Part shown: piece by piece, positions 2,416 through 23,179 of the stretch
Layout: each line of letters starts with the position of its first letter
How positions within the stretch are numbered: the stretch's first letter is position 1
NCBI RefSeq assembly: GCF_011682175.1
Contig: NZ_WHJG01000002.1
Location: forward strand, 1-64,000
Origin: Massilia frigida
GTDB taxonomy: Bacteria > Pseudomonadota > Gammaproteobacteria > Burkholderiales > Burkholderiaceae_D
DNA length: 64,000 bases
Direction of reading: 5' to 3'
The notes under the pieces: generated by a model
What the model was told of the DNA's origin: nothing
Database searches by the model: none
Seen by the model: only the letters and a program-made list of their open reading frames with translations
Position numbers and translations under genes: made by a program

Positions 2416-2424
2416 GAACGTCCC

Positions 2425-3171
2425 TTACCCTTCCCCGTGTGACACGCACTGTCCTACCAGCGCCAGCGCGTAATCGCCGATCAGCCCGCCGTAGCCGCTC
2501 AGCTGCGATCCTTGGCTGCTCGGCAACTGTGCCACCAGGCGCGGCGACACGCACCATGCCAAGCGGCCGTCGCAGCCGGTTGCTTCGAGCTCGAGGTCGG
2601 CAAACCAGCCGAATATGCTTTTCCCGTGTGCCTTCATGAAGGCTTCCTTGAAGGCCCAGACCGCAGTACAGGCGGCATCACCGCCGGCGGCGCTGACGCG
2701 CAATTCATGCGCAGTAAATGCCATCTCGCGTGCTGCATCCGGAAACGGCCTCACACGCTCTATATCGATGCCGACCGGATAAGCACTGGCCGCAGCCACC
2801 GCATATCCTTGCGAATGGCTGATGCTGACATGGGCACCGGCTGTCTCCGGCTGGCCGCGATTGTGTTCGGCACTGCTGTTGCCGATGACCAGCGCATGCA
2901 AGGGCGATTCGGCACCGGCCTGCGCATGCAGATGCTGTAATGCGGCCTTGGCGGCGACACGCCCGGCCATCCATTCGCGGCGCCGCTTGGCCAGCCGCAA
3001 TCCGTGCAGCCGCTCGCGCTCGGTATCGCCAAACATGCGTGCGAGGTAAACATGATCATGTTCGCGCCGCGCTACCGCGTCGACCGACACTGCGCTGACA
3101 ACGCAGTCACCGATGCCCACTGTGCAAGCCGTTTCCGTCTGAGGCAACATGATTGCGGCAATGCCGCTCAT
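2425..3171 (-). CDS. pigL: 4'-phosphopantetheinyl transferase PigL
   Basis: A 248-residue Sfp-type phosphopantetheinyl transferase. It should convert the apo carrier domains of PigG and PigH to the holo form using CoA. Key motifs are visible: SISHS near residues 116-120, the Mg-binding GIDIE (Asp136, Glu138) and WAFKEAFMKAHG (Glu176, Lys180). Start and pigK stop overlap as ATGA (3171-3168), indicating translational coupling. In Serratia pigL occupies the same position. The genome has a separate fatty-acid AcpS at 27.5 kb, so this gene looks dedicated to the pigment pathway. Confidence 0.93.
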   Translation of the reverse strand: MSGIAAIMLPQTETACTVGIGDCVVSAVSVDAVARREHDHVYLARMFGDTERERLHGLRLAKRRREWMAGRVAAKAALQHLHAQAGAESPLHALVIGNSSAEHNRGQPETAGAHVSISHSQGYAVAAASAYPVGIDIERVRPFPDAAREMAFTAHELRVSAAGGDAACTAVWAFKEAFMKAHGKSIFGWFADLELEATGCDGRLAWCVSPRLVAQLPSSQGSQLSGYGGLIGDYALALVGQCVSHGEG

Positions 3172-3503: not shown

Positions 3504-6233
3504 TTAGTGAACGCTGCCATCTGCTTGCAGCAGCAGGTGGTAATTGATGCCGCCGGTGCCGAAGGAACTGACCGCCGCGCGCCGGCTGCCGTCGATCGCA
3601 TCCCAGCGCGTGTTGGCGGTCACCAGTTCGGCCGGGATGCCCGCCAGCGGCAACTGCGGATCGATCCGGCGGCGCAGCAGGGTGGCCGGCAGCGCATGCC
3701 GCTGCAAGGCGAGCACCGTTTTCAGCAAGCCGGCGGCGCCAGCGGCGGCGAAGGTATGACCGATGTTGGATTTGACCGAACCGATGCGCAGCGGCACTGC
3801 GCGCGCGCCGCCGTACACGCTGCCGATCGACGTCAGTTCCGCCAGATCGCCCAGGCGCGTGCCGGTACCGTGCGCTTCGACGTACTGCACGGTCGCTGGC
3901 GCATAGCCGGCCTGCGCGAAGGCGCGGCGCATCGCCAGCGCCTGCCCGTCCGGATCGGGCGCGGTCATCGACACTGCATCGGCGGAGCCGCCAACGCCGG
4001 TAATCGTCGCATGAATACGGTCGCCGTCGCGCAGCGCATCGCTGAGCCGCTTGAGCACGAACAGCGCCGCGCCATCGCCCGGCGAGAAGCCGTCGGCATG
4101 CTCGGCAAACGGCGCTATCCTTTGTTGCGACAGCATCATTTGCGACGAACAGAGCACCAGATCGCGCAGGTTGGCCGGCAATTCGACGCCGCCGGCCAGC
4201 ACCAGGTCGTAGCGATGCCGACGCAAGGCCAGCACCGCATTGTTGAACGCTGCCAGTGACGACGCGCAGGCCGCTTCCACCGCGACCGGCATCGCGGCCA
4301 GGCCGAAGCAGGCCGACACCAGTGCCGCACTGCCGCTGGCAAGGTAGCCGTCCAGCGTGAAATGATCGATGCCGTGGTCCGCCGTAGCGGCATCTGGCGC
4401 GCTTCCCAAGGTGCGCGCCAGTTCAGGCGCGTGCAGCCGGCACGCGAGTTCGCGCTCGCGGCCCAGGCTGAGATTGGAGGCGACCATCACCGCGGTGCGG
4501 CCGAGCTTGCCGCGCTTGTGCGCCAGGCCGAAATCGGCCAGGGCTTCGGCGGCGACATGCAGGGTCAGCTTTTGCGCGATATCCAGCCCGGCAGCCCGCT
4601 TCGGGAATATTTTATATGCGGCAAGACCGGCATCGTACTGCTCGCGCTGCTTGAGGTCAGCGCCGTATTCCGCGTAGCTCGACAGCAAACCGGCCTCGCC
4701 TTCGCCAAAATAGGCGGAGCGCGGCAGCACGTTTTCCGGCAGCGGCTGCACTGCATCAAGGCCGTCGAACAGGCGCTGCGCGAAGTCGGCGCTATTGCTG
4801 CAGGGACCGAAGGCACCGCCGATGCCGACGATCGCAATCGGTTCCTGCTGTTCTTGCGCAGGCGGCATAGCGGACGGCAATGCATGACTGGCACTGTCGG
4901 GTGCCGACAGCACTAGATGCCATTGCACGCCGGTCAGGCTGCTGCCAAAGACGCCGGCAAGCTGCGGCGCGTCGCCAGGCCAGGCAATCGCAGCATCGGG
5001 ATACGCCATACCGGCACGCGCATGCAGCGCTGCCGCACTGCGCATCTGCGGCAAGGTTTTTTCGTGCAACGCCAGGCTGCTGCCTGCTACCGCGGCCAGT
5101 GCCGCATTGGCAAAGGTATGACCGAATGTGGCGACACTGGCGCCAACCTGCAGCGGCCGCTGCTTGCCCTGCGCACAGGCATCGCTCAAGACGCTCAACA
5201 ACTGCGGCGCCTGGCTGCCGATGCCGGGCAGCACGCAGTCGATATACTGTTGCGCCGCCGCCGTCACGTCCGCCTGTGCACAAGCTTCATTGATCACATG
5301 GAACGCCGCCGTGCCATCAACTGCATACGCCAAAGCCCCCGGCACGTCCTGCCTTGCCGCACCCATGCCGCGCAGCACGCTGTAGATGCGGTCGTTGTCG
5401 CGTCGCGCATCGGACAAGCGTTTGAGCAGCAGCGCGGTGGCGCCTTCGCCCATGGGCGTGCCTGCTCCGTCCTGCGCAAAAGGGTGGCCGCCGCAGGCGC
5501 CGGTAAAACCCTTTCTTGCCAGTGCCAACGGCGTCAGGAGGCTCTCGATGCGTTGTCCGCTGGCGACGATGACTGCCCTGCTCTGGCCGCTGTGAAGCGA
5601 CAGGCTGGCCGCCTCCAGCAGCGCGTAGCCGGTCGCATCCGCGCATTCCATTGCCTGCACCGGACCACGCAGCGACAGGAAGGATGCAATGCGCGCCGGA
5701 ATGCTGCTTGCCATTTCGCCGACCCGGTCATGCGAGGAGGAACCGAAGCGCTCGCGCAATGTCTCCTTCAGGCGCGAAAATTGATCGGCGCTGCCAGCAA
5801 GTTCATGCGCCAGGCGCACGCCTTCCACCTTCAATGCGTTGGCGATGGTGCTGTCGAAGCCGAAGCAGGTGCCGCACATGACGGCCACCTCATCGCGCGG
5901 CAGATCGCGCTTGTCATACCCGGCATCGCGCACGCACTCGTCCGCCACCTGCAACAGCATCAACATCATGTGCGATACCGATTTGCGGTAGGCCGGCGGA
6001 ATGCGGAAGCGCTTGAAATCGACTTCCATCTCGTCGAAAAAGGCGCCGTGCCATCCTCGCAACTGTTCGCGCACCTTGCCGTCAGTGTCCCAGTAACGTG
6101 CCAGCGGCAGCGGCGCAAAGTGAGACGTCCCCGCCTGCAGCTGGCGCCAGAACGCATCCTTGCCGCGCGCCTGGGGATACAGGCAACCGATGCCGACGAT
6201 CGCGATCGGCTCGAACACCGGCGGCTTATGCAT
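3504..6233 (-). CDS. pigJ: Tandem beta-ketoacyl synthase PigJ
   Basis: About 909 residues with two ketosynthase folds in tandem. It should condense the pyrrolyl group from PigG with malonyl on the PigH carrier. The second KS (from about residue 465) is complete: EAACASSLAA (Cys657), VEAHGTGT (His788) and KSNIGHTF (His826). The first KS (residues 6-450) keeps a Cys in AMECADATG (197) and a GHTF His (372), but the HGTGT box is replaced by VLPGIGS, so it probably acts as a chain-length-factor-like partner. I chose the ATG at 6233, which overlaps the pigI stop by 8 bp; an in-frame ATG 33 bp upstream (6266) would overlap by 41 bp. Confidence 0.92.
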   Translation of the reverse strand: MHKPPVFEPIAIVGIGCLYPQARGKDAFWRQLQAGTSHFAPLPLARYWDTDGKVREQLRGWHGAFFDEMEVDFKRFRIPPAYRKSVSHMMLMLLQVADECVRDAGYDKRDLPRDEVAVMCGTCFGFDSTIANALKVEGVRLAHELAGSADQFSRLKETLRERFGSSSHDRVGEMASSIPARIASFLSLRGPVQAMECADATGYALLEAASLSLHSGQSRAVIVASGQRIESLLTPLALARKGFTGACGGHPFAQDGAGTPMGEGATALLLKRLSDARRDNDRIYSVLRGMGAARQDVPGALAYAVDGTAAFHVINEACAQADVTAAAQQYIDCVLPGIGSQAPQLLSVLSDACAQGKQRPLQVGASVATFGHTFANAALAAVAGSSLALHEKTLPQMRSAAALHARAGMAYPDAAIAWPGDAPQLAGVFGSSLTGVQWHLVLSAPDSASHALPSAMPPAQEQQEPIAIVGIGGAFGPCSNSADFAQRLFDGLDAVQPLPENVLPRSAYFGEGEAGLLSSYAEYGADLKQREQYDAGLAAYKIFPKRAAGLDIAQKLTLHVAAEALADFGLAHKRGKLGRTAVMVASNLSLGRERELACRLHAPELARTLGSAPDAATADHGIDHFTLDGYLASGSAALVSACFGLAAMPVAVEAACASSLAAFNNAVLALRRHRYDLVLAGGVELPANLRDLVLCSSQMMLSQQRIAPFAEHADGFSPGDGAALFVLKRLSDALRDGDRIHATITGVGGSADAVSMTAPDPDGQALAMRRAFAQAGYAPATVQYVEAHGTGTRLGDLAELTSIGSVYGGARAVPLRIGSVKSNIGHTFAAAGAAGLLKTVLALQRHALPATLLRRRIDPQLPLAGIPAELVTANTRWDAIDGSRRAAVSSFGTGGINYHLLLQADGSVH

Positions 6234-7854
6234 CGGCGCTGGCGATGTCGTTGCGCTCGCCCGCATGCGGCATGGCTGCGCTGTCGCTGGTGGGGCGAGT
6301 CAGTTGCTCCAGCGCGCGGTAGTCGATCTTGCCATTCGCATTCTTCGGCAATTCTTCCAGTTGCCGGGCCAGCCTGGGAATCATGTAGCGCGGAAGGCGG
6401 GCGCTGCAGTAGCTCTTGATATCGAGCACGCCAAGTCGTTCGCCGGCATGCCGCAGCGTGTAACAGGCAACGAGGTGTTGCGTATCCCCCGCGCACTGGG
6501 CCACGACCGCGACTTCTGCGATACCCGGCATCGCGCCCAGCACCGCTTCGATTTCGCCCAGCTCGATACGGTTGCCGTTGAGCTTGAGCATGCGGTCCTT
6601 GCGGCCGTGGTAGTACAGCAAGCCGTTCTCGATGCCGACCAAGTCGCCTGTGGCATGCCGCCCGTGCTGGTGGTTGACGTGATTGGCCGCTTCCTGCCGG
6701 CGCCAGTAGCCCGGCGTCACGCACGCGCCAGAAACGACCAGTTCGCCGATCGCATGTTCGCCGCTGACCGGCTTCCCGTCCGCGTCGACAATTTCCGCAA
6801 TCACGCCGGGCAGCGTGCTGCCGATATAGACTGGCTTATCGCGGGCCATGTCAGCGTCGCGCACGTGGTAGTACAAGCAGACGTTGGTCTCGGTCGGGCC
6901 GTACAGGTTATACAGCGCGCATGCCGCAGGCAGGCAGGATTTCAATGCCTGCAGTTGCCGTATCGGGAATACCTCGCCAGCGAACAGCACATGGCGCAAC
7001 GATGCGGCAAGCTCGGATGTCAGCTCGCCGCTGCCAGCGAGCAGCGCGAGTGCCGACGGCACGCTGTACCAGACGCTGACCTTGTGTCGCCGGATGCCGG
7101 CGATCAGTGCCGCCAGATCGCGCTGCTCGTCCTCGCGCACGATCCATACCGCAGCGCCGACTGCGGCAGCGGCGAAGTAATCGAAGGTGCTCAGGTCGAA
7201 ATGAAAACCGGCATGGTTGGCGAAGACGTCGTGCGGCGTCATCTTCAATTCCGCCAGTGCCCAAGCGATGAAACTGTGCAGGTTAGCGTAGCTGATCTGC
7301 ACGCCTTTCGGCACGCCTGTCGAGCCGGAGGTAAACAGGATGGCGGCGAGATCGTCCACAGCGGCGGCGAATGGCGGCGCCAGTTCGACCGACGGCTGTA
7401 TTGCGGCAAGCTTCATGATCGCAGTGTGACCAAGCGGCGCATCATCGCCAGGCACATCATCCACGATCAGCACCAGTTTCAGCGTATCGCACTGCCATCC
7501 GTCCAGCGCACGGAAATGTGCGGCATCCGTGACCAGCACCGTCGGTTCGGCGCTGTCCAGGATTTTCCTTGCGCGTTGCGCCGGCTGCGTGCCGTCCAGC
7601 GGCACATAGACGGCGCCGATTTCCATCGCCGCATAGAGCGACAAGGCATAGTCCCGGCATTTCGGCAGCCAGATGGCGACGCGGTCGCCATGCTGTGTTC
7701 CATGGCGCGCAAAATGGGCAGCGCGCTGGCGCACGGCCTGGTAGAACTGTCTATAACTGATGGCGTCAGGATCAACGAACGCAGGACGATCGGGATGTTG
7801 CTGCGCGGCGCTGCGCAGGTAATCAATGACTGGGGTGAAGGTTGGAGTGCTCAT
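6226..7854 (-). CDS. pigI: L-prolyl-AMP ligase PigI
   Basis: A 542-residue adenylation enzyme of the ANL superfamily. It should activate L-proline as prolyl-AMP and load it on PigG, the first step of the bipyrrole branch. The A3 core LFTSGSTGVPKG is at residues 173-184, the ATP-binding NLYGPTETN follows mid-protein, TGDLVG marks the A7 region, and the C-terminal NANGK lysine is Lys509. There is no fused carrier domain, consistent with the free-standing PigG. A 153-bp gap containing a GC-rich hairpin separates it from pigH, so the pigI-M part might have separate transcript processing. The ATG at 7854 has only a weak ribosome site. Confidence 0.93.
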   Translation of the reverse strand: MSTPTFTPVIDYLRSAAQQHPDRPAFVDPDAISYRQFYQAVRQRAAHFARHGTQHGDRVAIWLPKCRDYALSLYAAMEIGAVYVPLDGTQPAQRARKILDSAEPTVLVTDAAHFRALDGWQCDTLKLVLIVDDVPGDDAPLGHTAIMKLAAIQPSVELAPPFAAAVDDLAAILFTSGSTGVPKGVQISYANLHSFIAWALAELKMTPHDVFANHAGFHFDLSTFDYFAAAAVGAAVWIVREDEQRDLAALIAGIRRHKVSVWYSVPSALALLAGSGELTSELAASLRHVLFAGEVFPIRQLQALKSCLPAACALYNLYGPTETNVCLYYHVRDADMARDKPVYIGSTLPGVIAEIVDADGKPVSGEHAIGELVVSGACVTPGYWRRQEAANHVNHQHGRHATGDLVGIENGLLYYHGRKDRMLKLNGNRIELGEIEAVLGAMPGIAEVAVVAQCAGDTQHLVACYTLRHAGERLGVLDIKSYCSARLPRYMIPRLARQLEELPKNANGKIDYRALEQLTRPTSDSAAMPHAGERNDIASADA

Positions 7855-8007: not shown

Positions 8008-9951
8008 CTATCCCCGCACCTCCACCCCCACCTCCTTGGCCGCATCCACCAGTATCTGCGCCGCCTCATCGAGATCATCGGCCGTGTGCTCGCAGCTCAC
8101 GCTGATGCGCAAACGCGCATCGCCGACAGCGACGCCGGGAAACACCACGGTCTGGCAATACAAGCCGCGTGCACGCGCCGCGCGTCCAAATTCCAGCGTC
8201 TTGCGATCATCGCCGACCACCACCGGGATGATCGCGCTGGCGGAATGCTCAAGGTCGAACCCGGCTTCCAGCAAATGGCCGCGCAAGTGATGGACGTTGC
8301 GCCACAGCTTGCTGATGCGCTGCGGCTCTCGCTCCATCACGTCGATCGCGGCGATCAGGCCGGCCGCGACCGCCGCCGGGATAGTGGCTGCAAACACATA
8401 GGAATGCGAATAGAAACGCAGGTAATCGACCACCTCCTCGTCGCCGCAAACGAAGCCGCCGACGCCAGCCAAGGTCTTGCTCATGGTGCCGACTTCCAGG
8501 TCCACCGCGCCCTTCATGCCGAAATGCTCGGTGGTGCCCGAACCGGTGCGGCCAAGCACACCGGTGGAATGCGCATCGTCAATCAAGACCCGCGCACCGT
8601 ATTGCTTCGCCAGCGCGACCAGGCGCGGCAAGTCGACCACATCGCCGTGCATGCTGAACACGCCGTCGGTGACGATCAGCTTGCCGCCGTCGTGGTCGGC
8701 ATATTTCTGTAGAATATTTTCCAGTCCGTCCAGGTCGTGCGGATAAATCTTGCGCGCTGCGCCGGCCAGCTTGCAGCCGTCCTGGATGCTCATGTGGTTC
8801 AGCGCATCGGTAAAGATCAGATCGTTCTGCCCGGCCAGCGCGGAAATGCAACCCAGGTTGGCGGAATAGCCGGACGGGTAGACGATACATGCCTGCCTGC
8901 CCTTGAGCTTCGCCAGCCGCCGCTCCAGTTCCATGTGCAGCACATTGGTGCCGCCGATCAGGCGGCAACCGGTATTGGTGGCACCGTATTCGCGCACGCC
9001 CTTGACGATCGCCTCGATCACTTCCGGATGATTCGCCAGGCCCAGGTAATTGTTCGACGCAAACATCAGGAATTCCCGGCGCTTGCCGCTGACCTCGTCG
9101 TAGATCACCGCACGGTTGCTGCAGCGCGATTCCAGCGGCATGCCGTACCAGTACAACTGTTCTTGCTGCTTGCGCTGATAGAAGGTATTGAACTCGCGCG
9201 CCTTGTGGAACAGGTCGCGATGCGGGATGTTGACGAAATCCCTCATCGTACGCGCGTCGTCCGCTGCCGGCTCTGCCGCCACGGAAAGCGCACTGGCGTC
9301 AGCATGGCCGAGGTTGTCGATGAACTCCGACCACTTCTTTTCTTCCGTCGCCGACGGCACTGCCATTGCCGGCGCTGCCGGTTCCAGCATGTCCAGGTGC
9401 ACGAGAGGGCGCAGATGCGCGATGACCTGTGCAATGCTGGTCAAGCCTGTGGGAAAAGTGACGGCGGCAATCCCAAGCAACTTGGGAAGCTCGGACAACA
9501 CGGCTGCCTGGGTAACGGAGTCGATGCCGAGATCACTCTCCAGCTCGGCATCCGGCGCGAGGTCGCCCGGCTTGTAACCGGTGTGGCGGCTGTAGGCGGC
9601 GATGACCGCCGTCGTCAGCGCATCGGCTGCGTGCTCCGGCACGCAGGGTCGCTGCGGCAAGGCAAGCGTCTTTCCGTCCTGTTCCAGGCATTGCCCGATA
9701 TGCGCCAGCACCAGCGCAATCGTGCTTGTCTGTTGCGGATTTTGCCGGCTGGGCAGGCCGAGCGCCTTGTAAAGCTCCGCAAGGGTTGTGGCCAGCGTCA
9801 CCGAGTCGATCCCGAGATCGCTCTCGAAATCAGCATCCGGCACGAGGTCGGCGCGTGCGTAGCCGGTGTGGGTTTGGAACATGCCCAGCACATACGCCTG
9901 CAGTCCTGCGTCCGGCGTTGCGATATGGTCGATTACCTGCTCGTTCATCAT
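8008..9951 (-). CDS. pigH: PigH: tandem acyl carrier protein and serine-condensing PLP enzyme
   Basis: A 647-residue protein with two acyl carrier domains (LGIDS serines Ser50 and Ser144) followed by an alpha-oxoamine synthase domain of the KAPA-synthase type. The PLP lysine is Lys491 in GTMSKTLAGVGG, and DDAHSTG at about 457-463 is the cofactor-Asp motif. By family it accepts a malonyl-derived chain from PigJ and performs decarboxylative condensation with L-serine, giving the bipyrrole HBM. The first ATG (9951) overlaps the pigG stop as ATGA and has a GGGGGGAG ribosome site, so I prefer it to upstream in-frame codons. The mid-linker between carrier and synthase domains is Ala/Pro rich. Confidence 0.94.
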   Translation of the reverse strand: MMNEQVIDHIATPDAGLQAYVLGMFQTHTGYARADLVPDADFESDLGIDSVTLATTLAELYKALGLPSRQNPQQTSTIALVLAHIGQCLEQDGKTLALPQRPCVPEHAADALTTAVIAAYSRHTGYKPGDLAPDAELESDLGIDSVTQAAVLSELPKLLGIAAVTFPTGLTSIAQVIAHLRPLVHLDMLEPAAPAMAVPSATEEKKWSEFIDNLGHADASALSVAAEPAADDARTMRDFVNIPHRDLFHKAREFNTFYQRKQQEQLYWYGMPLESRCSNRAVIYDEVSGKRREFLMFASNNYLGLANHPEVIEAIVKGVREYGATNTGCRLIGGTNVLHMELERRLAKLKGRQACIVYPSGYSANLGCISALAGQNDLIFTDALNHMSIQDGCKLAGAARKIYPHDLDGLENILQKYADHDGGKLIVTDGVFSMHGDVVDLPRLVALAKQYGARVLIDDAHSTGVLGRTGSGTTEHFGMKGAVDLEVGTMSKTLAGVGGFVCGDEEVVDYLRFYSHSYVFAATIPAAVAAGLIAAIDVMEREPQRISKLWRNVHHLRGHLLEAGFDLEHSASAIIPVVVGDDRKTLEFGRAARARGLYCQTVVFPGVAVGDARLRISVSCEHTADDLDEAAQILVDAAKEVGVEVRG

Positions 9952-10226
9952 GCTCCCCCCGCTGCCGCTGCCAGTGCCGGCCGGCTTTCGCTTTGCAAGC
10001 GCTCGACCAGATCGAGCATGTGCTGCACCGATTTGAAATTGCTCGGGACCACCTCCTTCAGAGGCACCGTCACGCCGGCTTCCCGCCGCAGCAGGTCGAC
10101 CAGATCGAACAAGGCACTGGAATCGATGATGTTCAATTCCAGCAAGGGCGTGTCCAACGCAAACTGCTGGCACTCGCCGCCGAGGTAGTTCTCCGCGATA
10201 TACGCGAGAAGCTTGTTTCCTAACAT
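9948..10226 (-). CDS. pigG: Peptidyl carrier protein PigG
   Basis: A 92-residue free-standing carrier protein. It holds proline as a thioester while PigA oxidises it to pyrrole-2-carboxyl. The attachment serine is Ser36 in LNIIDSSALF, preceded by the expected Asp. The C-terminus ends in an Ala/Gly tail. The ATG at 10226 is 7 bp after AAGGAGAGG, a strong ribosome site, so the longer open frame upstream is not used. The stop overlaps the pigH start. PigL is the likely modifying enzyme. Confidence 0.92.
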   Translation of the reverse strand: MLGNKLLAYIAENYLGGECQQFALDTPLLELNIIDSSALFDLVDLLRREAGVTVPLKEVVPSNFKSVQHMLDLVERLQSESRPALAAAAGGA

Positions 10227-10272: not shown

Positions 10273-11295
10273 TCATTTCCGCTTTTCGCCGATGAACAAG
10301 GTGCGCGGCCCCGGTATCGCCTGCACCCTTGCATTGACGAAGCCCGCTTCCGTGAAGCGTTGCAGGTATTGCGCGCAGGTCGATTCGATGCCGCCGTCAG
10401 TGGACACCAGCATGTTGATCGACAGCAGCGACGTGAACAGTGGGCCGCTTTCGTCATCGGCCAACGGTGTCTCGCTGGCGATGAAGGTGCCGCCCGCCGG
10501 CAGCGCCTCGTGGATGTGACGAAGGATCTGCATCTGGATGTCCGGCGCATAGTCGTGCAGCATCCAGCCGAGATGAATCAGGTCGTGTTCCCCCTTGGGG
10601 ATGGTGCCGCTGATGACGTCGCCCGCCACGATCTTGATGCGCTCGGCATAACCATGCTCGGCGATCTTGTCGCGCACGAAGCTGGTCGCCTGCGGCAGTT
10701 CGCAGATGCTCAGGCCAAGCTGTGGATAGCGCGCAGCGACAGCCATCGGCAAGGTGCCGATGCCGCTGCCGATATCCATGAATTTGCTGTAGCCGGAAAA
10801 ATCGAATCCCTGCAGCATGCCCTCGATAAAGGGTTGCGCGAAAATGCCGAGGAATTCCTGGAAATCAACGACATCCTGCGGGTTCTGGTACAGGATGCTG
10901 AACCAGCTGCGCTCATCACCGAAAGCCGCCTGACGCTGATCCTTGTCCTCATGCACCCCTTGCGCCGTATGTGACCACAGCGGATACAGGAAGGTATCGA
11001 TATGGCGGCCGAGCCAGCCCAGCCATTGCGCTGAACCACTCACCATGTAGTCGCGCGCGGCCTTGGTGAGGCTGAAATGATCCTCCTCCTTCGCCAGCAG
11101 GCCGATGGCAGTCAAGGCGATCAGCAGGCGCTTGCCGGATTGCAGCGGAATCTTGCGGTGCTCGCAAATGGCTTCTGCCGTTGCCGGGCCTTGCTCCAGC
11201 GCGTCGAAGACTTTCAGTTCCAGGGCGGCAGTAATCGTCTTGGTCTTGAAAAATCCCATCATCAAGTCAACGATCTGCTCTTTATTCATTTCCAT
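10273..11295 (-). CDS. pigF: O-methyltransferase PigF
   Basis: A 340-residue class-I SAM-dependent O-methyltransferase. By family it methylates the hydroxyl of HBC to give MBC, the methoxy-bipyrrole aldehyde. The layout is typical: an N-terminal winged-helix dimerisation part (residues 1-110), then the SAM-binding DIGSGIGTLP, and the catalytic-region GEHDLIHLGWMLHDY. In Serratia, PigN assists this step; no pigN is seen here. The ATG at 11295 is preceded by GGGAACC; a second ATG two codons on is possible. The gene follows pigE with a 13-bp gap. Confidence 0.92.
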   Translation of the reverse strand: MEMNKEQIVDLMMGFFKTKTITAALELKVFDALEQGPATAEAICEHRKIPLQSGKRLLIALTAIGLLAKEEDHFSLTKAARDYMVSGSAQWLGWLGRHIDTFLYPLWSHTAQGVHEDKDQRQAAFGDERSWFSILYQNPQDVVDFQEFLGIFAQPFIEGMLQGFDFSGYSKFMDIGSGIGTLPMAVAARYPQLGLSICELPQATSFVRDKIAEHGYAERIKIVAGDVISGTIPKGEHDLIHLGWMLHDYAPDIQMQILRHIHEALPAGGTFIASETPLADDESGPLFTSLLSINMLVSTDGGIESTCAQYLQRFTEAGFVNARVQAIPGPRTLFIGEKRK

Positions 11296-11308: not shown

Positions 11309-13861
<2,553 letters not shown>

Positions 13862-13881: not shown

Positions 13882-13902
13882 TCCCCTCCTCCTGGCAGGG
13901 GA
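13882..13902. repeat. Small GC-rich hairpin between pigD and pigE
   Basis: TCCCCT and AGGGGA form a 6-bp inverted repeat around a CCTCCTGGC loop in the 112-bp gap between pigD and pigE. It shares the pyrimidine-rich CCTCC core with the hairpin between pigH and pigI. No T run follows. The function is unknown. Confidence 0.35.
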
Positions 13903-13934
13903 AAGCAGCCCGTCCGCGCACGCCTTATCTGTCG

Positions 13935-16376
13935 TCACACGATCAAGGGCACATCTTCCGCCACGGCAGCCGGCTCAATCTGCATCGCATCGCGCTGCCA
14001 TCCGGTCGCCGTCGCCAGGCTGATGCCGTCGCCTTCGTTGTTATGCCCAACCACCACCGAGAACAGATTGATGCGCCCCGGCTTCTGCAGCGCCTCGGCC
14101 AGCATGTCGGCGTCGAAGCTGTCGAGCGTGCGCGCGCAGACCTGCAGACCGCAGATGTCTTCTTCCCAGTCCGCGGACATCAGGTTCACCAGACGCATCT
14201 GGCGCGAAGTGCGGTTGAACAGGATGCGCTCCTGGTAGGTGTTGATCACCGAGTGGCCGCCGTTCATAAAGTAGAAGACGGTGAAGTTCTTGCGCATGCG
14301 GTCCGGATAATTGAGCGCGTTCTCGATAAAGCTCGGCAGAATGTCGGGCACCAGGCCCTTGGCGCCGTCGCCGATGAAGGCGACCACGTTGGTGCCGCTG
14401 GTGTACGCGACGCTCAGCGTGGCCTGCAGCGCATCACCCATCAGCGCCCGTCCGTACCAACCGGAAAAGCCGCGCCGGGTGCGCGCGACATTGCGGATCG
14501 CCGAGATGCCGCAGCGGCCGACGTCGTACAAGCCGGTGTAGTCGTAAGCGCGCTCGACGATCAGCTTTTCCACCAGGTGATTCAGGCGCGCGAAAAAATA
14601 GTTCGGGCTCATCGGTGTCGACGGCAGTTTGCTTGCCACATCCGACGGCGTGTCCGCCACCGACGCCATCAGCCGGCAGCGGCGTTCGCGCAAGGCCGGC
14701 GAGACGTCGAGGTGGCGCTCCACATGGCGCAGGAAGCTACGGTAGTCCATCACCAGCCCATGGTCGGTAAAGGGTGACATGTGGGCGGCGTTGCGGGTCA
14801 GTTGCACGATTCTCAGCTTGCGCATCAGCCGGCCTTCCGAAAACGGCGTACTGACCTGCCCAAGCTTGCTTTTCATGAAGAACAGGCATTGCTGCGACTG
14901 CGGATTGAGCTTGTCCCTGGTATGCAAGTAGTTGTACACGCGCGGACTGTAGCCGTACACTGCCAGCGTGCCGAGGTAATTTGGAATGCGCTTGCCGTCG
15001 CGGTACTTCGGCACCGAACCGGGATGGGTGAGGGAGTCGGTCAGCGCGATGCCGGCACGCTCCGCGATCGACAAGGTCAACGCCAGTTCTTCCTCATCCA
15101 TCGGCCCGCATTGCCACAGCAGCCGTTCCGGCCCTTGGTTGATGATCTTCATCACGTCCTGCAAAACATCCTGCATCGCCTCGTCGGGCGCTGCCGTGCA
15201 CTCCTTGAGCGCAGGTGCAAACAGCGCCGGATCGAGTTCGTCGCCGGCGTCGAGCACTGCCTGCGTCGCCAACAGCACCACCGGCCCCTGCCCTGCGTCG
15301 TACAGCGCCACCGCGCGTCGAAGGTCTTGCGCGATATTGTCGGCGTCTTCCATGTACACATAAGCAATGCCGCGCGCCTGCAGCACCGCACGCGTATCCT
15401 CGTCGCGGGAAATCGTGCCCTGGAACGCAAACCACTGGCTGGCACGGTTTTCCGCGCAGACGATGAAGCCCTTGGCGCGCGCCTCGCGCAGGTTGGCGAG
15501 CGTACCCCGGAATTCGTCGATCATGCCGCTGGTAACGATCACTGCGAACGGCTTCTTGTACAGCTGCCAGTTGGCCAGCGCGCCGCAAGCCAGGCTGTGT
15601 TCGCTCGGTCCACGTAGCACCAGCGCGCCAAGCCGGTTCGCTTCCACGTCAAAATAAGTGATCAGATTCGACACCAGCGAACCGGTGAAGTAAAAACCGA
15701 GCCAGTCACTGCCGGCGCGCGCGGACAGGAAGCCGGTCAGGAAAGCGGCCAGCGTATTCCTGCGCAGGCCGCGTGTGTCGGTCTTGGCGCGGCGATTGAC
15801 ATAACTGTGTTCGAGGAAATCCATCCACAGGCAGAGCAACTGCGTCTGCAGCACTGCCCTGTCGGACGGCAGGATGCATTCGATGTATTCCATCGGCTGG
15901 TAGCGGATGCGGTTCTCTTGCGGCGAGGCGAATACCGCCGTCGAAAACGACGAGCAGAATGCCGGCACCGCCGCCTCCTGCAGGCGCGTGTGGAAGCTGG
16001 CAAGCTGTTCGTCGATTTCTTGCGGGCTGATGCCATCGTACAGCGGATCGGCGTAATCGATGAACAGCATGCCAACCTGGAAGCCGCCCTGCGTGGGCGT
16101 GGCGGTAATCTTGCCGAACGCCGCCTCCAGACTGTCGGCCTGGATCACCTTGATCGCCAGGCGTTCCTGACGCGCGGCGAGGAAGCGCACCGCCTTGTCG
16201 CACGCCTCGCGATATACCGGGTTCGAGACCGACTGCGCTGGTGCATAGTCGATGTCGGCATCAATTTCCACGTGCTGGAATACGTCGCCGCGCACATCGT
16301 TCAACACACTGAAACCGGTTTCAAAGAACTCGCGGCGGCGCGTGACAACAACCACGCCTATAGCCGTCATATCCAT
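13935..16376 (-). CDS. pigD: Thiamine-diphosphate enzyme PigD
   Basis: An 813-residue ThDP-dependent carboligase. By family PigD decarboxylates pyruvate and adds the acetyl unit to 2-octenal, giving 3-acetyloctanal for the MAP branch. The C-terminal ThDP-binding part includes AFIGDGAKGLVPDILPSF and a downstream FYFMNGGHSVINTYQ, the GDG-to-N pattern. The N-terminal part is about 260 residues of less typical sequence, as in PigD proteins. I chose ATG 16376 because AAAGGACAG lies 6 bp upstream; the frame stays open to 16508 but those codons have no ribosome site and run into the pigBC tail. Confidence 0.93.
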   Translation of the reverse strand: MDMTAIGVVVVTRRREFFETGFSVLNDVRGDVFQHVEIDADIDYAPAQSVSNPVYREACDKAVRFLAARQERLAIKVIQADSLEAAFGKITATPTQGGFQVGMLFIDYADPLYDGISPQEIDEQLASFHTRLQEAAVPAFCSSFSTAVFASPQENRIRYQPMEYIECILPSDRAVLQTQLLCLWMDFLEHSYVNRRAKTDTRGLRRNTLAAFLTGFLSARAGSDWLGFYFTGSLVSNLITYFDVEANRLGALVLRGPSEHSLACGALANWQLYKKPFAVIVTSGMIDEFRGTLANLREARAKGFIVCAENRASQWFAFQGTISRDEDTRAVLQARGIAYVYMEDADNIAQDLRRAVALYDAGQGPVVLLATQAVLDAGDELDPALFAPALKECTAAPDEAMQDVLQDVMKIINQGPERLLWQCGPMDEEELALTLSIAERAGIALTDSLTHPGSVPKYRDGKRIPNYLGTLAVYGYSPRVYNYLHTRDKLNPQSQQCLFFMKSKLGQVSTPFSEGRLMRKLRIVQLTRNAAHMSPFTDHGLVMDYRSFLRHVERHLDVSPALRERRCRLMASVADTPSDVASKLPSTPMSPNYFFARLNHLVEKLIVERAYDYTGLYDVGRCGISAIRNVARTRRGFSGWYGRALMGDALQATLSVAYTSGTNVVAFIGDGAKGLVPDILPSFIENALNYPDRMRKNFTVFYFMNGGHSVINTYQERILFNRTSRQMRLVNLMSADWEEDICGLQVCARTLDSFDADMLAEALQKPGRINLFSVVVGHNNEGDGISLATATGWQRDAMQIEPAAVAEDVPLIV

Positions 16377-16428
16377 ATTTCTGTCCTTTAGTGGAAAATT
16401 GAAATCTGCGGAGATCACTACCGAATGT

Positions 16429-19400
16429 TTATGCGCTCGCTCTCTGCTCGACCAGCGCTTGGTCGGTATCGGCAACGCGTTCCTCGATGCGCACCACGCC
16501 GCCGTCACCGTCGAGGTAGATCAGGTCGCCGGTGCGTATGGTCTGGGTCGCCTGCTTCGCATTGACGACCGCCGGAATACCGAACTCGCGCGACACGATG
16601 GAGCTGTGCGACAAGGCCGAGCCGATGTCCGCGACCACCCCGGCCGCCAGCACGAACAGCGGCGTCCACGATGCATCGGTAAAGCGTGCCACCAGAATTT
16701 CGCCCTGGCGGAATTCGCCCACCTGGCGATTGAGGTCGGTGATCACGCGGGCGCGCCCCACCGCCACGCCGGGGCTGGCGCCGAGGCCATGCAGCAGGTC
16801 GCCCTGCGCCGCGTCCAGCAACGCCTGATCGTCGAGGCGCGGCACATGGCCGCCGATCAGCGCCATTGGCGGTTCCTGCAGGCGCTCGTTGAGCAGATGC
16901 TGCTGGCGGTTGCGCGCAATCAGTTGCGGAGCAAATGCCTGCTGCGCCGTTTTGCGCCCGGCCACGTAATCGCGCAATTCGTTGAAATCGATGTACGCCA
17001 GGTCCTGTATGCCACACACACCCTCCGCCGCGACGCGGCGCAGCACCTCGACGATGATTTTGCGGTAGAACCAGGTCTCGGCGATGTAGGTCGGACGCGT
17101 CGCTTCGCGCCGTTCCGCCATCTTCGCGTAGGCGGCGATCACGAAGCGGAATGTCATCCTTGCCTTGAGCGGCAGTTTGTCCAGCAATTGCCGCGTGTCT
17201 TCTTCGCGCGCCTTGTCGATCGTCGCCAGGCGCGATTCAAGCTGCACATCGCTGCTCAGGTACAGACGGATGATTTGCAACAGATAGGTCGGATCGTCGT
17301 TCCAGCGCGGAATGCTCAGTTCGAATTCCTGGCGGCCACGCGAACCGAACTCCGCGAGGAAGGCGCCGAAATGCTCGTCCCAGAAACGGCGCCCCTCTGC
17401 ATGCTGCTGCAAGCTATCCGCCAACTGCGCCAGCGGCGTCTCCAGGAACAGGGTGCGCAGCACCGGCAAGCGCTCGACGTGCGCTGCCAGTTCGCACACG
17501 CCACGCGTCACCTCGATGGTACGCAGGCTGTTCATCGATGCCTTGATGCGGTTCTGCAGCCCTTTGCCTTCGTTCCCCAGCCACTTCTCGCACAGCTCCG
17601 CCAGCGCATCGTACAGCGCGAACGATTGCAGGAAGAACGGCATGTAGGCCGCGCAGGATGCGAGGAAGTAGCGGTCGATGCGCTGCAGTTCGGCATCGAG
17701 CTGCGGCAGGCTCATCTTCTCGAGATCCAGCTTGCCGAAGCGCTCAGTTTCGCGCTGGCGCAAGGCGATCATCTTGTTCACCGTGCCGCCGGCAGTGGCC
17801 AAATTATGTACCTGGCATACCATCCAGTAGAGGCTGCTCTTGAAGAATTGGAACCCGGACACCGGTTCGCCGTAGGGATTTTTGTAGTGCGTGAAGTCGA
17901 CGTCGGCTGTCGCGTAGCGCCGCGTGAACTTCATCGGCTCGTGCGTGGGAGGGCATTGCGTCAGCAGCCGCGCCGATGCGGAAATGTTCAGGTACACATG
18001 CCCCTGCAGGTAGCCGACGTAATACTGCGAGCTGCCGATGTCGAGCAAGCCCATGGTCTTCACAGCCGGGCCGTGCACGTGGTGCTGGTAGAAGCGGGTG
18101 AAGGACAGTCCGAGCGGCGTCATCAGCCCGGTCAGGATTTCGCCGGTGTCCATGCGCGAAAACATCGTGTTGTCGCGCACCTGCTGACTGGTTTCCTGCG
18201 CGTCGCCGTACTGCTTGCCGGCGCTGGAAGCAGTCACCGTGATCGGCCGCGCCTGCAGTATCCAGATACTGTCATCCTTCAGTGCCCATTCGATATCCAG
18301 TTCGCAGCCGTAATGGCGGCGAATCCGTGCGGCACAGGCCGCCAGTTCGGATGCCTGCATATCGCTCAGGCTCGGCTGATCAACGAATGGCGGCGCTACC
18401 TCCTGCATCGCGACGCCATCGGCAGTGCGCGCACACATCACCGGCTTGGCCCGGATAATTCGCTCGATCAGCGCATGACTGTCGCTGTCCACCACATAGG
18501 TATCGGTGCTCGCCTGGCCCGACACCACGCCCTCGCCCAATCCCCAGCAAGATTCGATCACCGTGCGCCCGGCATCGCCGCTGATCGGGTCGGCGGTGAA
18601 CAGCACGCCGGCAGCATCGGCAACGATCATCTGCTGGATCACCACCGCGATGCCGCCGTCGGCCCGCTTGCTTCCCTGATAGGCAAGCGCGCGTTCGTTC
18701 CACAGCGACGCCCAGCAACGCTTGACGCAATCGAGCAGCGCGCTCTCGCCCTCCACGTGCAGGAAGGTGTCGTACTGGCCTGCAAATGATTGTGCATCGC
18801 CGTCTTCATTGACGGCGGAAGATCGCACCGCGACCCGGCCGCTACCGAGTTCGCGATAGGCGGCGACGATCGCCTCCTGCAGCGCGGGCGGCAACGGCGC
18901 TTGCGCAATGCGTGCGCGGATCTCGGCGCAGCTGTCGCGGTCGACCTTGTCCATGCCGTCGATCCAGGCCGCCAATCCGGATGCCTGCAAAAAATCATGA
19001 CAGGCATCGACCGTCACGCAATAGGCGCGTGGCACCGGGAAGCCGGCGCCGATCAAGGTATTGAGCGAGTTAGCCTTGCCGCCGAAACGCTGCACGCCGG
19101 CCGCAGGGTTGCCGGCAATTTCCATCACATGCAGGCCGGAAGGCAGTGCTTGCGCCACCATCGTCCCGGCCGCCGTGCGCTGCAGGTATGTCTGCGCCTG
19201 TTGTGCCGCAGCGAACCCTGCGCTCACTGCGCTCTCCAGGTTGCCGATGCCGACGCTGTCCTGGTTCGCAAAGGAAACCCCACCCACCGGCTGCGACGCC
19301 TGCACAAACAAGTCGGCTTTCATTTGCCCGCGCGAAGCGACCACCAAGGCCCGCGGCCAGCGCCAGATCCGGATGTCTTCCACCTCGTCAGAGGATAGTC

Positions 19401-20805
19401 CCTTCGCCTGCAGCATTTCCGACACTTCTTGCAAGGTCGCCTGCTGCAGCTGCGCAAACTCTGTCTTGCCGAGTTTGCCCTGGTTGAGCCGATCCGCCAC
19501 CGGCTTCAGCAAGGTCAGCACACCGGCTTTCTTGCCGTCGTCGCGGTCCAGCCAGTTGGCGACCACGCACACGCTGCTGCGGCACCAAGCCAGCGGCGCA
19601 GCGGCGGCGGTATCTCCTTCGATCACATAGCCGCCGAAGTATTCAGTCCAGGCAGGGTTGCGCAGGTAGACGTTGGCGATGCAGTAGTCGCGGTGCTCGA
19701 TCTCACGTATCGCCTGCTGCTGCTGCGCCGGCAAACCGGAGACCGCATCCAGTGCTGCATGCTTGGGCGCGGCCCACACCACCGCGCCGGCGCTGACCTC
19801 GCTCTGCACGCCGCCACGTTCAAAGGTGATGCGGTAACGTTCGCCATCACGCGCAACCGTCTGCACGCGCGCACCGGTTGCAATACGGCAGTTGCCACGC
19901 TCGCGCAACGCCGCCTGCAGACGTTCGCTGAGATAACCGTTCCCGCCGGGGAAGGTCACCAGCGTGCCATACAAGTAGCCGACCAGGAAGTGCAGCCCGA
20001 CATAGGCGGACACATCCGCCACCGACAGACATTCCACTTTCAGGGTCGTCTCGACCGCATCGCGCACCAGCGGGCCGAACTTCACATCCGGCACCAGCGC
20101 CGTTGGCAGCCGCGCACGCACTTTCTCATCGAACAATAGTTCGGCCAGCGAGATCGAGTCGAACTGTTCCATCTCCTCGCGCGTCCAGCCGCATCCGGCT
20201 TGCCACGGTAGCGCCGGATACTTGCCGCCATCCTTGCGGAAGCGCTGCAGGTAGGCATATAGTTCCGCAAACACCGGATCGCCCAGCTTCTTCGGCGCCG
20301 CGATGAATTTCTTGCCGCGCAATGCGGCGCCGAGCAGGTTGCATGTCAGTCCATACATCGCCGGGTTCAGCAACTCCTTCGGCTGCTTCAGCAGCCCCAG
20401 TGTGACCTCCCCCAGACCGCGCAGCAGATGGTGTGTGTTGAACAGCACGAATTGACTGTCGCCGGTGGAGCGCCATGCATTGGACAAGCCGAGCCCGCTC
20501 AGCAATTGCGCCGTGTCCGAACCGGGCACCGGCTCCTGGAAGCAGCTGCCTGCTGTGGCGAAGCGTAGTTCACCGCGCTGCCCGCTGCGCGCCGCGCCGC
20601 CCACCGTGCTCTCCCGCTCCAGCACCAGCACGCGATGGCCAGCAAGCTTCCAGGCTGCCGCGAGGCCGGACAGCCCGCCGCCGACCACCACCACGTCGCA
20701 AGCGCCGGCCGGGTCGCCTTCCCCTGCACCGCGATCGTCCGCAACGGGAATGGCCGCTGCACCTGTTTCATAATCCTTGCTGGGGAATTTTTTCTGCGTT
20801 GTCAT
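16429..20805 (-). CDS. pigBC: Fused PigB-PigC: MAP-forming flavin oxidase joined to the prodigiosin-condensing enzyme
   Basis: One uninterrupted frame of 1458 residues. Residues 37 to about 540 are a FAD amine-oxidase-like domain (VVVGGGLSGLAAAWKL at 39-54, Glu63 for ribose binding), matching PigB, which oxidises H2MAP to MAP. From about Met549 the protein becomes PigC, the ATP-dependent MBC+MAP condensing enzyme: FGGKANSLNTLIGAGFPVP and VAVRSSAVNEDGDAQSFAG of the ATP-grasp part, LQARPIT at its end, a large central domain, and a C-terminal swivel domain with LSHSSIVSREFGIP (catalytic His1400). In Serratia these are two genes. The predicted N-terminal membrane segments of Serratia PigB are not seen. 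The ribosome site AGAGGCAG precedes the ATG. The junction is clean, with no frameshift. Confidence 0.9.
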   Translation of the reverse strand: MTTQKKFPSKDYETGAAAIPVADDRGAGEGDPAGACDVVVVGGGLSGLAAAWKLAGHRVLVLERESTVGGAARSGQRGELRFATAGSCFQEPVPGSDTAQLLSGLGLSNAWRSTGDSQFVLFNTHHLLRGLGEVTLGLLKQPKELLNPAMYGLTCNLLGAALRGKKFIAAPKKLGDPVFAELYAYLQRFRKDGGKYPALPWQAGCGWTREEMEQFDSISLAELLFDEKVRARLPTALVPDVKFGPLVRDAVETTLKVECLSVADVSAYVGLHFLVGYLYGTLVTFPGGNGYLSERLQAALRERGNCRIATGARVQTVARDGERYRITFERGGVQSEVSAGAVVWAAPKHAALDAVSGLPAQQQQAIREIEHRDYCIANVYLRNPAWTEYFGGYVIEGDTAAAAPLAWCRSSVCVVANWLDRDDGKKAGVLTLLKPVADRLNQGKLGKTEFAQLQQATLQEVSEMLQAKGLSSDEVEDIRIWRWPRALVVASRGQMKADLFVQASQPVGGVSFANQDSVGIGNLESAVSAGFAAAQQAQTYLQRTAAGTMVAQALPSGLHVMEIAGNPAAGVQRFGGKANSLNTLIGAGFPVPRAYCVTVDACHDFLQASGLAAWIDGMDKVDRDSCAEIRARIAQAPLPPALQEAIVAAYRELGSGRVAVRSSAVNEDGDAQSFAGQYDTFLHVEGESALLDCVKRCWASLWNERALAYQGSKRADGGIAVVIQQMIVADAAGVLFTADPISGDAGRTVIESCWGLGEGVVSGQASTDTYVVDSDSHALIERIIRAKPVMCARTADGVAMQEVAPPFVDQPSLSDMQASELAACAARIRRHYGCELDIEWALKDDSIWILQARPITVTASSAGKQYGDAQETSQQVRDNTMFSRMDTGEILTGLMTPLGLSFTRFYQHHVHGPAVKTMGLLDIGSSQYYVGYLQGHVYLNISASARLLTQCPPTHEPMKFTRRYATADVDFTHYKNPYGEPVSGFQFFKSSLYWMVCQVHNLATAGGTVNKMIALRQRETERFGKLDLEKMSLPQLDAELQRIDRYFLASCAAYMPFFLQSFALYDALAELCEKWLGNEGKGLQNRIKASMNSLRTIEVTRGVCELAAHVERLPVLRTLFLETPLAQLADSLQQHAEGRRFWDEHFGAFLAEFGSRGRQEFELSIPRWNDDPTYLLQIIRLYLSSDVQLESRLATIDKAREEDTRQLLDKLPLKARMTFRFVIAAYAKMAERREATRPTYIAETWFYRKIIVEVLRRVAAEGVCGIQDLAYIDFNELRDYVAGRKTAQQAFAPQLIARNRQQHLLNERLQEPPMALIGGHVPRLDDQALLDAAQGDLLHGLGASPGVAVGRARVITDLNRQVGEFRQGEILVARFTDASWTPLFVLAAGVVADIGSALSHSSIVSREFGIPAVVNAKQATQTIRTGDLIYLDGDGGVVRIEERVADTDQALVEQRASA

Positions 20806-20933
20806 TTTCTGCCTCTATCTTTTCCTGGGTTGAACAGCTGCCTTCAAACAGCCAGCTTTGCAAGACCGTTGGACACAACTAGCCACGGACAAGCCATGTT
20901 GTCCGGCGCGTATGCGAAACCGAATGATTCGGG

Positions 20934-22082
20934 CTAACGCAGCCCCATGTGCCGTGCGATGAACTCGCGCTGTATTTCATTGGTGCCGGAGAAGATGCGC
21001 GCCGGCAGTGCATCGAGCAGCAAGCGATCGATGCCGGTCTCGCTGCAGACACCGGCGCCACCAAAGATCTGTACCGCGTCCAGCCCGCATTGCACCGCGC
21101 ACTCGGACACCCACAGCTTGCTTTGTGCGATCGCCTCTTCATGCGGCAGGCCCTGATCGTAGAGCCAGCCGGCGCGGTACAGCAGCAGGCGCGATGTTTC
21201 CAGGCGCAGCTTGAAGTCGACCAGCCGGTCCGACACCGCCTGGTTGTGTCCGATCGGACGGCCGAACTGCTTGCGTTCGCGCGCATGCGTGACGCATTGC
21301 TCAAGCACGCGCTCCATCGCGCCGACATAGGCGGCAAACAGGCAGCCGCGCTCCCAGATCATGGAGTCATGGAAGATGCTCGCGCCCGCGCCTTCCTCGC
21401 CCACGCGCGCCCATGCGGGTACTCTGCAGTCGTCCAGATGGACGCTGCCCCAGGGCGAGGTGCACAGGCCCGACTTGCGCTCACCGGTAGTGACTGTGAG
21501 GCCATGCGTTGCGCGCGGGATCAAAAAGGCGCTGATGCCGAAATAGGATTGGTGCGCATCGGTCTTCGCATACAGCAGGAAGACATCGGCCACCGGCGCA
21601 TTGGTGACGAAACATTTTTCGCCGTTGAGGATGTAGTGCTCGCCGTCGCGCCGCGCGCTGCTGCGCATGGCGAATGCGTCGGAACCGGAGCCGGGCTCGG
21701 TGATCGCATTGGCGGCAATCAGGCTGCCTTTCGCCATGCCAGACAGGTAGCGCTCGTGCAGCTCGCGCGAACCATGGCGCCACAGCGGCACAGCGCAAGC
21801 GAACATGTGTGCACACAAGGAGAACACCAGCCCCATGTCGACGCAACCTCGGCCGAGCGCCTCCACCGCGAGCATGGTATCGAGCGCACCGAAGCCGGAA
21901 CCGCCCCACTCTTCAGGCAAGGGCAAACCGGCCAGGCCGATCTCTGACGCCTGCGTCCACTTGTTGCGGTCGAAATGGGAAGACGCGATGCGTTCGCTGG
22001 CCGAGGCGGACAACACGTCGCGGGCAAAACGATGGATGTGTGAAACAGTTTCTTGCTGCTCGCTGCTGAGACGAAAATCCAT
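20934..22082 (-). CDS. pigA: L-prolyl-carrier dehydrogenase PigA (acyl-CoA dehydrogenase family)
   Basis: A 382-residue flavoprotein, very close to PigA length. It should oxidise prolyl-S-PigG to pyrrolyl-2-carboxyl-S-PigG by two two-electron steps. Acyl-CoA dehydrogenase features include ITEPGSGSDA, GEKCFVTNAPVADV, a C-terminal VQIFGGAGVCSETGIDRL and the closing IFSGTNEIQREFIARHMGL. It is the first gene of the cluster, as in Serratia. I chose ATG 22082 because AGAGGGCAGG sits just upstream; the frame is open to 22124 with only a GTG. A 128-bp gap separates it from pigBC. Confidence 0.92.
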   Translation of the reverse strand: MDFRLSSEQQETVSHIHRFARDVLSASASERIASSHFDRNKWTQASEIGLAGLPLPEEWGGSGFGALDTMLAVEALGRGCVDMGLVFSLCAHMFACAVPLWRHGSRELHERYLSGMAKGSLIAANAITEPGSGSDAFAMRSSARRDGEHYILNGEKCFVTNAPVADVFLLYAKTDAHQSYFGISAFLIPRATHGLTVTTGERKSGLCTSPWGSVHLDDCRVPAWARVGEEGAGASIFHDSMIWERGCLFAAYVGAMERVLEQCVTHARERKQFGRPIGHNQAVSDRLVDFKLRLETSRLLLYRAGWLYDQGLPHEEAIAQSKLWVSECAVQCGLDAVQIFGGAGVCSETGIDRLLLDALPARIFSGTNEIQREFIARHMGLR

Positions 22083-22700: not shown

Positions 22701-22990
22701 GAACAGGACGGTTGACGCGTTTCAGTACGGAATCCATAGGCACTGCTGCCCGCGCCACTCGGCACCTGCAGGATGCGGCGTTCGGCGCCGCGGCCAGCAT
22801 CATCGGCGCGGCAACGTTGACCGACACGGCCTGCGCCACCGCCAGCCGATCCTGCTGGTGCAGCGCCCCGACCGCTTCCACCACGCCCGCATTGTTAATC
22901 AACAGCACGCGGGTACAGCCGCCGCGGTCATGCCGTAGCGCGTCACCGGCCAGCCAGCGTGCCAGCGCCCCGGTGCCGGCAAGATCGGTG
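22700..22990 (-). pseudogene. Remnant of a short-chain dehydrogenase/reductase gene
   Basis: On the minus strand the middle of an SDR of the sepiapterin-reductase type is readable: GALARWLAGDALRH, then RVLLINNAGVVEAVGALHQQ and VAQAVSVNVAAPMMLAA. Shifting frame gives ERRILQVPSGAGSSAYGF, which corresponds to the following strand with the catalytic Ser region. The N-terminal Gly-rich cofactor loop and the Tyr-x-x-x-Lys part are missing. The gene is therefore truncated at both ends and frameshifted. It is sandwiched between the pigment cluster and a broken recombinase, suggesting deletion or insertion events at this boundary. Confidence 0.6.
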
Positions 22991-23179
22991 TCTGGGCCAT
23001 GGCCTGCGCCACAGCGTCGAAGACGGCATGAAATTGTGCGCCCATCCTGGCGCGGGACTCGCGCCGGCCAAGCTCGGCAACGATGAAGTCGAACAGATCT
23101 TTCCGCAGCTCCAGGTTGGGACCGGCCAATGCCAGGACGTCGTGGGCGAGCCATGTGGTAAGCGTTCGGATGTCGCCGG

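Follow-up and report, generated by a model that had tools for sequence, protein, structure and literature searches.

A 64,000-nucleotide stretch of the Massilia frigida genome (contig NZ_WHJG01000002.1, positions 1 to 64,000; hereafter the window) carries pigBC, a minus-strand gene in which a PigB-type oxidase and a complete PigC ligase are joined in one protein within a prodigiosin (pig) cluster. We propose, with a probability of roughly 0.82, that pigBC encodes a bifunctional prodigiosin enzyme that arose once from an adjacent pigB-pigC pair when a stop codon and spacer were lost, that DUF6041, the membrane partner of PigB, disappeared from the same lineage, and that the gene then spread horizontally within Oxalobacteraceae. 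The fusion itself is already in print for a relative and is ordinary among the sampled Oxalobacteraceae pig clusters; the pattern of DUF6041 around it is the part that we did not find in the literature searched. The gene and its parts are as follows.

16429..20805, minus strand: pigBC fusion gene, 1458 aa, 158.9 kDa (calculated), one open frame, with length and frame the same in five relatives
19189..20697, minus strand: PigB-type FAD dihydropyrrole oxidase domain, residues 37-539 (~37-540), NCBIfam NF053556 match
19138..19185, minus strand: linker, residues 541-556 (~16 residues), from alignment; sequence variable, length fixed in six genes
16480..19131, minus strand: PigC prodigiosin ligase domain (ATP-grasp, middle region and swivelling His domain), residues 559-1442, NF052631 match
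16606..16608, minus strand: codon of His1400 in motif LSHSSIVSREFGIP, from alignment; LSHS in 14/14 aligned PigC sequences

Read as the reverse complement, positions 16429-20805 form a single frame of 1458 residues with zero internal stops, and the plus-strand reading is interrupted by stops. The first-pass annotation, which left the strand unstated, had proposed a PigB-PigC fusion of this length in a prodigiosin cluster, and the single frame together with its NCBIfam and Pfam domains bears this out. Pfam places Amino_oxidase at residues 45-536, with FAD/NAD-motif families starting at residue 37, followed by PPDK_N (the ATP-binding domain, like that of phosphoenolpyruvate (PEP) synthase) at 572-870 and the swivelling PEP-utilizers domain at 1366-1436. 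The PigB equivalog model NF053556 gave 624 bits, below its cut-off of 850, because the alignment starts only at profile position 128 of 659 and the membrane-domain positions are missing; PigBs of Methylocystis (540) and Spartinivicinus (581) also fail this cut-off, and that of Pseudoalteromonas (1156) passes it. The oxidase part is matched end to end, with residues 4-539 on profile positions 128-657, and holds the FAD motif VVGGGLSG at residues 40-47 and the acidic ribose residue Glu63. By our estimate Glu63 occupies the position of Asp69 in Hahella HapB, which is essential there (PMC7065143; this and the other papers given by PMC number, PMC8557933 apart, are cited from the available portions of their text).

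The PigC half passes its own model: NF052631 gave 1487 bits over a cut-off of 1300 with the profile fully covered (1-883 of 883), and in the control genomes this profile matched weakly in 14/14 and over the cut-off in 0/14. The ATP-grasp motifs RSSA and QARP[IV]T and the motif LSHS are common with the 13 other aligned sequences, and GxGxxG is likewise kept in 14/14, as is an acidic residue where pigBC has Glu63; alignment also upholds the annotated assignment of His1400 as the motif histidine (LSHSS). No transmembrane-like segment appeared in a hydropathy scan of the oxidase part, the sole segment over the threshold in the whole protein (718-736) lying within the PigC ATP-binding domain. The annotation was thus right that membrane segments are absent from the oxidase, although their lack does not follow from fusion, as Hahella HapB, an enzyme that works in solution, has none either (PMC7065143), and short, separate PigBs also occur in Zooshikella, Spartinivicinus and Methylocystis. 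No other full match to PigB-PigC occurs in the window's genome. An AlphaFold prediction of residues 1-1200 from a 7-row alignment reached a mean predicted local distance difference test score of 42 and a predicted template modelling score of 0.33, too low to judge domain contacts.

The same fusion recurs in relatives. A contig scan returned five related loci, and in four of them, those of Massilia rubra, M. aquatica, M. mucilaginosa and Rugamonas rubra, a single frame encodes 1458 residues. The fifth, Zooshikella harenae, gave one tblastn match over residues 1-1447 and was rejected as a fusion, since its oxidase frame ends after 552 residues and a spacer separates it from pigC. Among 392 sampled family genomes PigC exceeded the cut-off in six, and all six are fused, each within a 1461-residue open frame; only the cut-off is informative here, as the bare profile matches 390/392 genomes weakly because ordinary PEP synthases match it. 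This set comprises the window's genome, the four named relatives and G237, a third genus assembled as a single contig of 6.26 Mb; the other five are drafts. The six genes are distinct, span three genera and are all 1458 codons long. As two near-full-length family matches share one frame and five relatives have 1458 codons, a chance match is excluded, and the fusion of a PigB-type oxidase with a complete PigC is real. The family and order sets were drawn from larger groups, and all distribution counts are sample counts. Within this sample the annotators' guess that the fusion is common in Oxalobacteraceae pigment clusters is supported.

Outside the family, the two parts are separate. In the order that holds Zooshikella, PigB at E≤1e-40 was found in 5/341 genomes (Z. 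harenae included) against 0/14 controls, and the oxidase and pigC genes are unfused and adjacent in all five of these gammaproteobacterial genomes outside Oxalobacteraceae. Of 72,556 plasmid records searched at the protein level, six contain both parts (two Methylocystis, three Thioclava and one Pseudoalteromonas), and each has two annotated genes, separate and adjacent, beneath the match; four were examined directly and two judged from feature names alone. The check on the spread of the fusion that had been suggested with the annotation yields six fused genomes in the Oxalobacteraceae sample and only unfused ones among the genomes and records found beyond the family. Single PigB hits at E≤1e-40 in the class sample (1/369) and the phylum sample (1/398) were both the window's own genome, with no others. 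These samples did not single out Serratia or Vibrio clusters by name, and it is from the literature that their genes are known to be separate.

The unfused clusters also differ in what accompanies the oxidase. Four of the five unfused genomes (two Zooshikella-like ones, G464 and Spartinivicinus) have a small hydrophobic gene between pigA and pigB, and the corresponding domain is joined to the front of the oxidase in G406 and Pseudoalteromonas; gene and domain alike are Pfam DUF6041. Both Methylocystis records and one Thioclava record carry DUF6041 as its own gene directly before the oxidase. DUF6041 evidently corresponds to the membrane domain at the N-terminus of Serratia PigB and to Hahella HCH_06023, both described in PMC7065143, whose available text does not use the name DUF6041. 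It exceeded its cut-off (27 bits) in 5/5 gammaproteobacterial genomes and in 0/6 fused genomes, the window's included, where the best sub-threshold score was 12.8 bits; the controls gave 3/14 sub-threshold matches and 0/14 over the cut-off. On these scores the fused six differ from the PigB type of Serratia and Pseudoalteromonas, which carries DUF6041. Nor did the first domain of the PigB profile match in the six fused genomes at E≤1. The site that a separate DUF6041 gene would occupy is short in the window:

20806..20933, minus strand: pigA-pigBC gap, 128 nt, the site of a separate DUF6041 gene in 4/5 unfused genomes examined

At the pigBC end of this gap (20806-20835), the PigB profile matches of the six fused genomes do not stop at the ATG but continue some codons upstream across an in-frame TAG, reaching profile position 119 in the window and 110 in two others, and the codons are much alike in all six; they may be a chance extension or a remnant of the end of a lost DUF6041.

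Phylogenies of the two domains place the fused six in a single clade in both cases (support 96/93 for PigB and 100/100 for PigC), and the DUF6041-oxidase and oxidase-PigC fusion types sit in separate clades; the tree program warned of long branches elsewhere, in Thioclava most of all. When the window was compared with two other genera, pigA, pigBC, pigD and pigE were ~96-98% identical in DNA, and uvrC, pgsA, pdxJ, recO, era and rnc were 79-89% identical over their aligned parts. Because the pig genes are far more alike across genera than the housekeeping genes, these comparisons point to horizontal movement of the pig cluster within Oxalobacteraceae. As the fused six form one clade and the cluster appears to have been transferred horizontally, the 6/6 count most likely represents one fusion event and not six. 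Adjacent pigB and pigC genes would in that event have lost the pigB stop and spacer, DUF6041 would have been lost in the same lineage, and the cluster with its fusion would then have passed between members of the family.

The junction is compatible with such an origin. In an alignment with unfused relatives, PigB homology gives out around residue 540 and the N-termini of most native PigCs fall at ~553, so that little beyond the last residues of PigB, its stop and the spacer was lost at the join; in Zooshikella the pigB stop is followed by 26 codons with two more stops and then by pigC in the same frame. The clean join that had been annotated near Met549 stands, and Met549 as its landmark does not: it is Thr in Massilia rubra and is not an ancestral PigC start. 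Residues 541-556 are the fastest-changing part of pigBC, with a mean ratio of nonsynonymous to synonymous change (dN/dS) of ~1.6 over only 16 codons, compared with 0.43 in the oxidase and 0.27 in PigC. Across the gene as a whole the mean dN/dS is 0.34, and DNA identity among the six genomes (94-98%) equals or exceeds protein identity (92-98%), amino-acid change being rather high relative to the low synonymous change.

With regard to function, the PigC ligase reaction has been established by others. We infer that the fused protein likely acts bifunctionally: its N-terminal FAD domain would use O2 to oxidise H2MAP, a dihydropyrrole, to MAP, and its C-terminal PigC domain would join MAP and MBC to give prodigiosin, using ATP and a swivelling histidine domain, a mechanism suggested by the PEP-synthase-like architecture. 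The oxidase reaction has been shown by others for HapB and PigB; HapB oxidises H2MAP with FAD and O2, giving H2O2 (PMC7065143). The surroundings of the gene agree with this role, as pigA, pigD and pigE equivalogs over their cut-offs stand beside pigBC. M. frigida DJPM01 makes prodigiosin, as detected by liquid chromatography-mass spectrometry, and the genes of its cluster each share 93.6-100% identity with those of four Antarctic Massilia (PMC10213415); because a strain of this species with a closely similar cluster makes the pigment, the fused gene is by analogy likely functional. In three Pseudomonas putida strains without PigB, fed MAP was not converted by PigC to any noteworthy extent, and adding PigB gave prodigiosin in two of the three, leading the authors to call PigB essential in that setup and to speculate on a membrane complex of PigN/F, PigB and PigC (PMC10187637). 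The fusion is consistent with the proposed PigB-PigC complex, and our preferred reason for it is that it tethers PigB to PigC in a 1:1 ratio, as a substitute for a membrane-anchored complex; MAP might also be channelled through the fused enzyme.

Several observations weigh against this proposal. PigC in vitro requires no additional proteins (work cited in PMC10187637), and fusion is for that reason not mechanistically required. The PigB part is under its equivalog cut-off (624 versus 850), mostly from the absence of the first 127 profile positions. Serratia PigB stripped of its membrane domain is inactive (PMC7065143), and by analogy an oxidase that has no DUF6041 at all is not guaranteed to work. 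Lastly, G237 is the only one of the six fused genomes in a single contig, the rest being drafts, and it gives the firmest case for a missing DUF6041.

The strongest alternative is that the fusion is a passive stop-loss accident, in which two independent enzymes on a string share a free MAP pool with neither channelling nor kinetic benefit. It is compatible with bifunctionality and denies only the advantage, and we regard it as a serious possibility, if somewhat short of an even chance. It would account for a short, unconserved linker (the dN/dS of ~1.6 again over 16 codons only) and for a join at which little beyond stop, tail and spacer was lost; one event carried by a mobile cluster means that persistence is not proof of selection; and the literature has other bacteria producing prodigiosin with PigB and PigC as separate proteins, with PigC active alone in vitro (PMC10187637). 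However, frame and length are kept in all six genes at a mean synonymous divergence (dS) of ~0.08, DUF6041 is absent in exactly the fused genomes, and PigC depended on PigB in P. putida (PMC10187637).

A second alternative, that two products are made, either full-length protein or oxidase plus a PigC that arises from a start within the gene or from proteolysis of the linker, is improbable. In its favor, Met561, close to the native PigC start, is conserved in 6/6 fused genes. Against it, no GGAG, AGGA or GAGG lies within 20 nt upstream of ATG549 or ATG561 in the window (ATG starts only were considered), Met549 is not conserved, and synonymous change at residues 541-570 shows no marked dip (0.042 versus 0.058 overall, other 30-codon blocks ranging from 0 to 0.179). 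A single uncleaved product is presumed. An assembly or sequencing artefact joining two genes, conceivable for a 255-contig draft, is ruled out by the identical 1458-codon architecture in five other genomes with their own substitutions, including the single-contig G237, which also settles the concern about an assembly join attached to the annotation.

A more far-reaching form of our proposal concerns the oxidase itself, which we found in three arrangements (fused to DUF6041, beside DUF6041, and fused to PigC without DUF6041), with no genome among those examined carrying both fusions. Conceivably, though we consider it doubtful, the PigC domain in this family replaced DUF6041 in the physical role of holding the oxidase in place and in an active state. 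A single terminal DUF6041-PigB-PigC complex would in that case be held together in three different ways, one per arrangement, and of this complex the fused enzyme would be a membrane-free version handing MAP straight to the ligase. The pattern of DUF6041 loss in fused genomes was not found in the literature searched, and its absence in exactly the fused genomes makes the role of the membrane subunit directly testable. The fusion offers natural evidence of PigB-PigC joint action, which the 2023 paper on the P. putida strains could only infer from co-expression, and a single bifunctional, apparently membrane-free enzyme could be handy for making prodigiosin analogues.

The first-pass annotation did not present the fusion as a described system, and the view that it is undescribed is not supported: a "pigCB fusion" in the prodigiosin cluster of Janthinobacterium lividum, a member of the same family, is mentioned in PMC10187637, citing Schloss et al. 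2010. That fusion is known to us from one sentence; the domain order here is oxidase first and ligase second. In the literature searched this was the only mention of a PigB-PigC fusion. PMC8557933 uses 'fused' once, for a PCR step; the available text of PMC10213415, on prodigiosin in Massilia frigida, has zero occurrences of 'pigB' and a lone 'fus' match in a species name among its references, and the available parts of PMC6127377 and PMC5754502 do not discuss a fusion. Among other known systems, Hahella chejuensis likewise has an FAD-active oxidase without a membrane domain (HapB) and a PigC homologue (HapC) in the same cluster, but the two are separate and the membrane domain has its own gene, HCH_06023 (PMC7065143). 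Pseudoalteromonas PigB and PigC carry out the same two reactions within the same A-B-C-D-E gene order, but with an N-terminal DUF6041 membrane domain fused to the oxidase and PigC separate. Serratia sp. ATCC 39006 reportedly performs the same two reactions with a PigB that has an N-terminal membrane domain and a separate PigC. Streptomyces RedH, the undecylprodigiosin ligase (NF052632), is also PigC-type, but the window protein, at 994 bits, is under that model's cut-off of 1350.

The transcription order of the cluster in the window is pigA, pigBC, pigD, pigE, genes of the pigF, pigH, pigI and pigJ types, a phosphopantetheinyl transferase gene and a nitroreductase-family gene.

20934..22082, minus strand: pigA, prolyl-carrier dehydrogenase, NF053553 686 bits over cut-off 500
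13935..16376, minus strand: pigD, NF053552 1370 bits over cut-off 950, start at 16376
11309..13822, minus strand: pigE, NF053554 1421 bits over cut-off 850
10273..11295, minus strand: putative pigF-type O-methyltransferase, Pfam Methyltransf_2, after pigE
8008..10173, minus strand: putative pigH-type carrier-domain/aminotransferase protein, Pfam PP-binding and Aminotran_1_2, start uncertain
6226..7854, minus strand: putative pigI-type adenylating enzyme, Pfam AMP-binding
3504..6266, minus strand: pigJ-type protein with two ketosynthase stretches, NF053555 489 bits under cut-off 900, Pfam ketoacyl-synt twice
2425..3171, minus strand: 4'-phosphopantetheinyl transferase (putative PigL role), Pfam ACPS and 4PPT_N
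1282..2415, minus strand: nitroreductase-family protein (putative PigM role), Pfam Nitroreductase; 28-31% identical genes in two gammaproteobacterial pig clusters

The PigJ-type protein, of 920 aa, is divergent from the PigJ equivalog model, as its score indicates. Three Oxalobacteraceae genomes (G302, G240 and G111) hold two PigC-like proteins ~4.7 kb apart, one of each pair being a full-length but low-scoring match to the PigC profile (288-296 bits). The neighbours of the G302 pair, in the region 1920-16588, are a class-III aminotransferase, a phosphatidylserine-decarboxylase-like protein, an AurF-type oxygenase and a reductase, in a cluster that we did not recognise.

At 22899-23977 and 24171-24796 the window's cluster adjoins an array of four tRNA-Gly and one tRNA-Cys genes and, at 22899-23977, two frames that match a phage-type integrase in its N-terminal and C-terminal parts (Phage_int_SAM_1 and Phage_integrase). 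Because the uvrC-pgsA-tRNA region and the pig cluster lie on different contigs in M. aquatica and M. mucilaginosa, the pig cluster may be an island at a tRNA site. At the far end of the cluster, frames at 304-1133 resemble a tyrosine recombinase by eye and may mark the other island boundary; Pfam gave no match on 693-1133.

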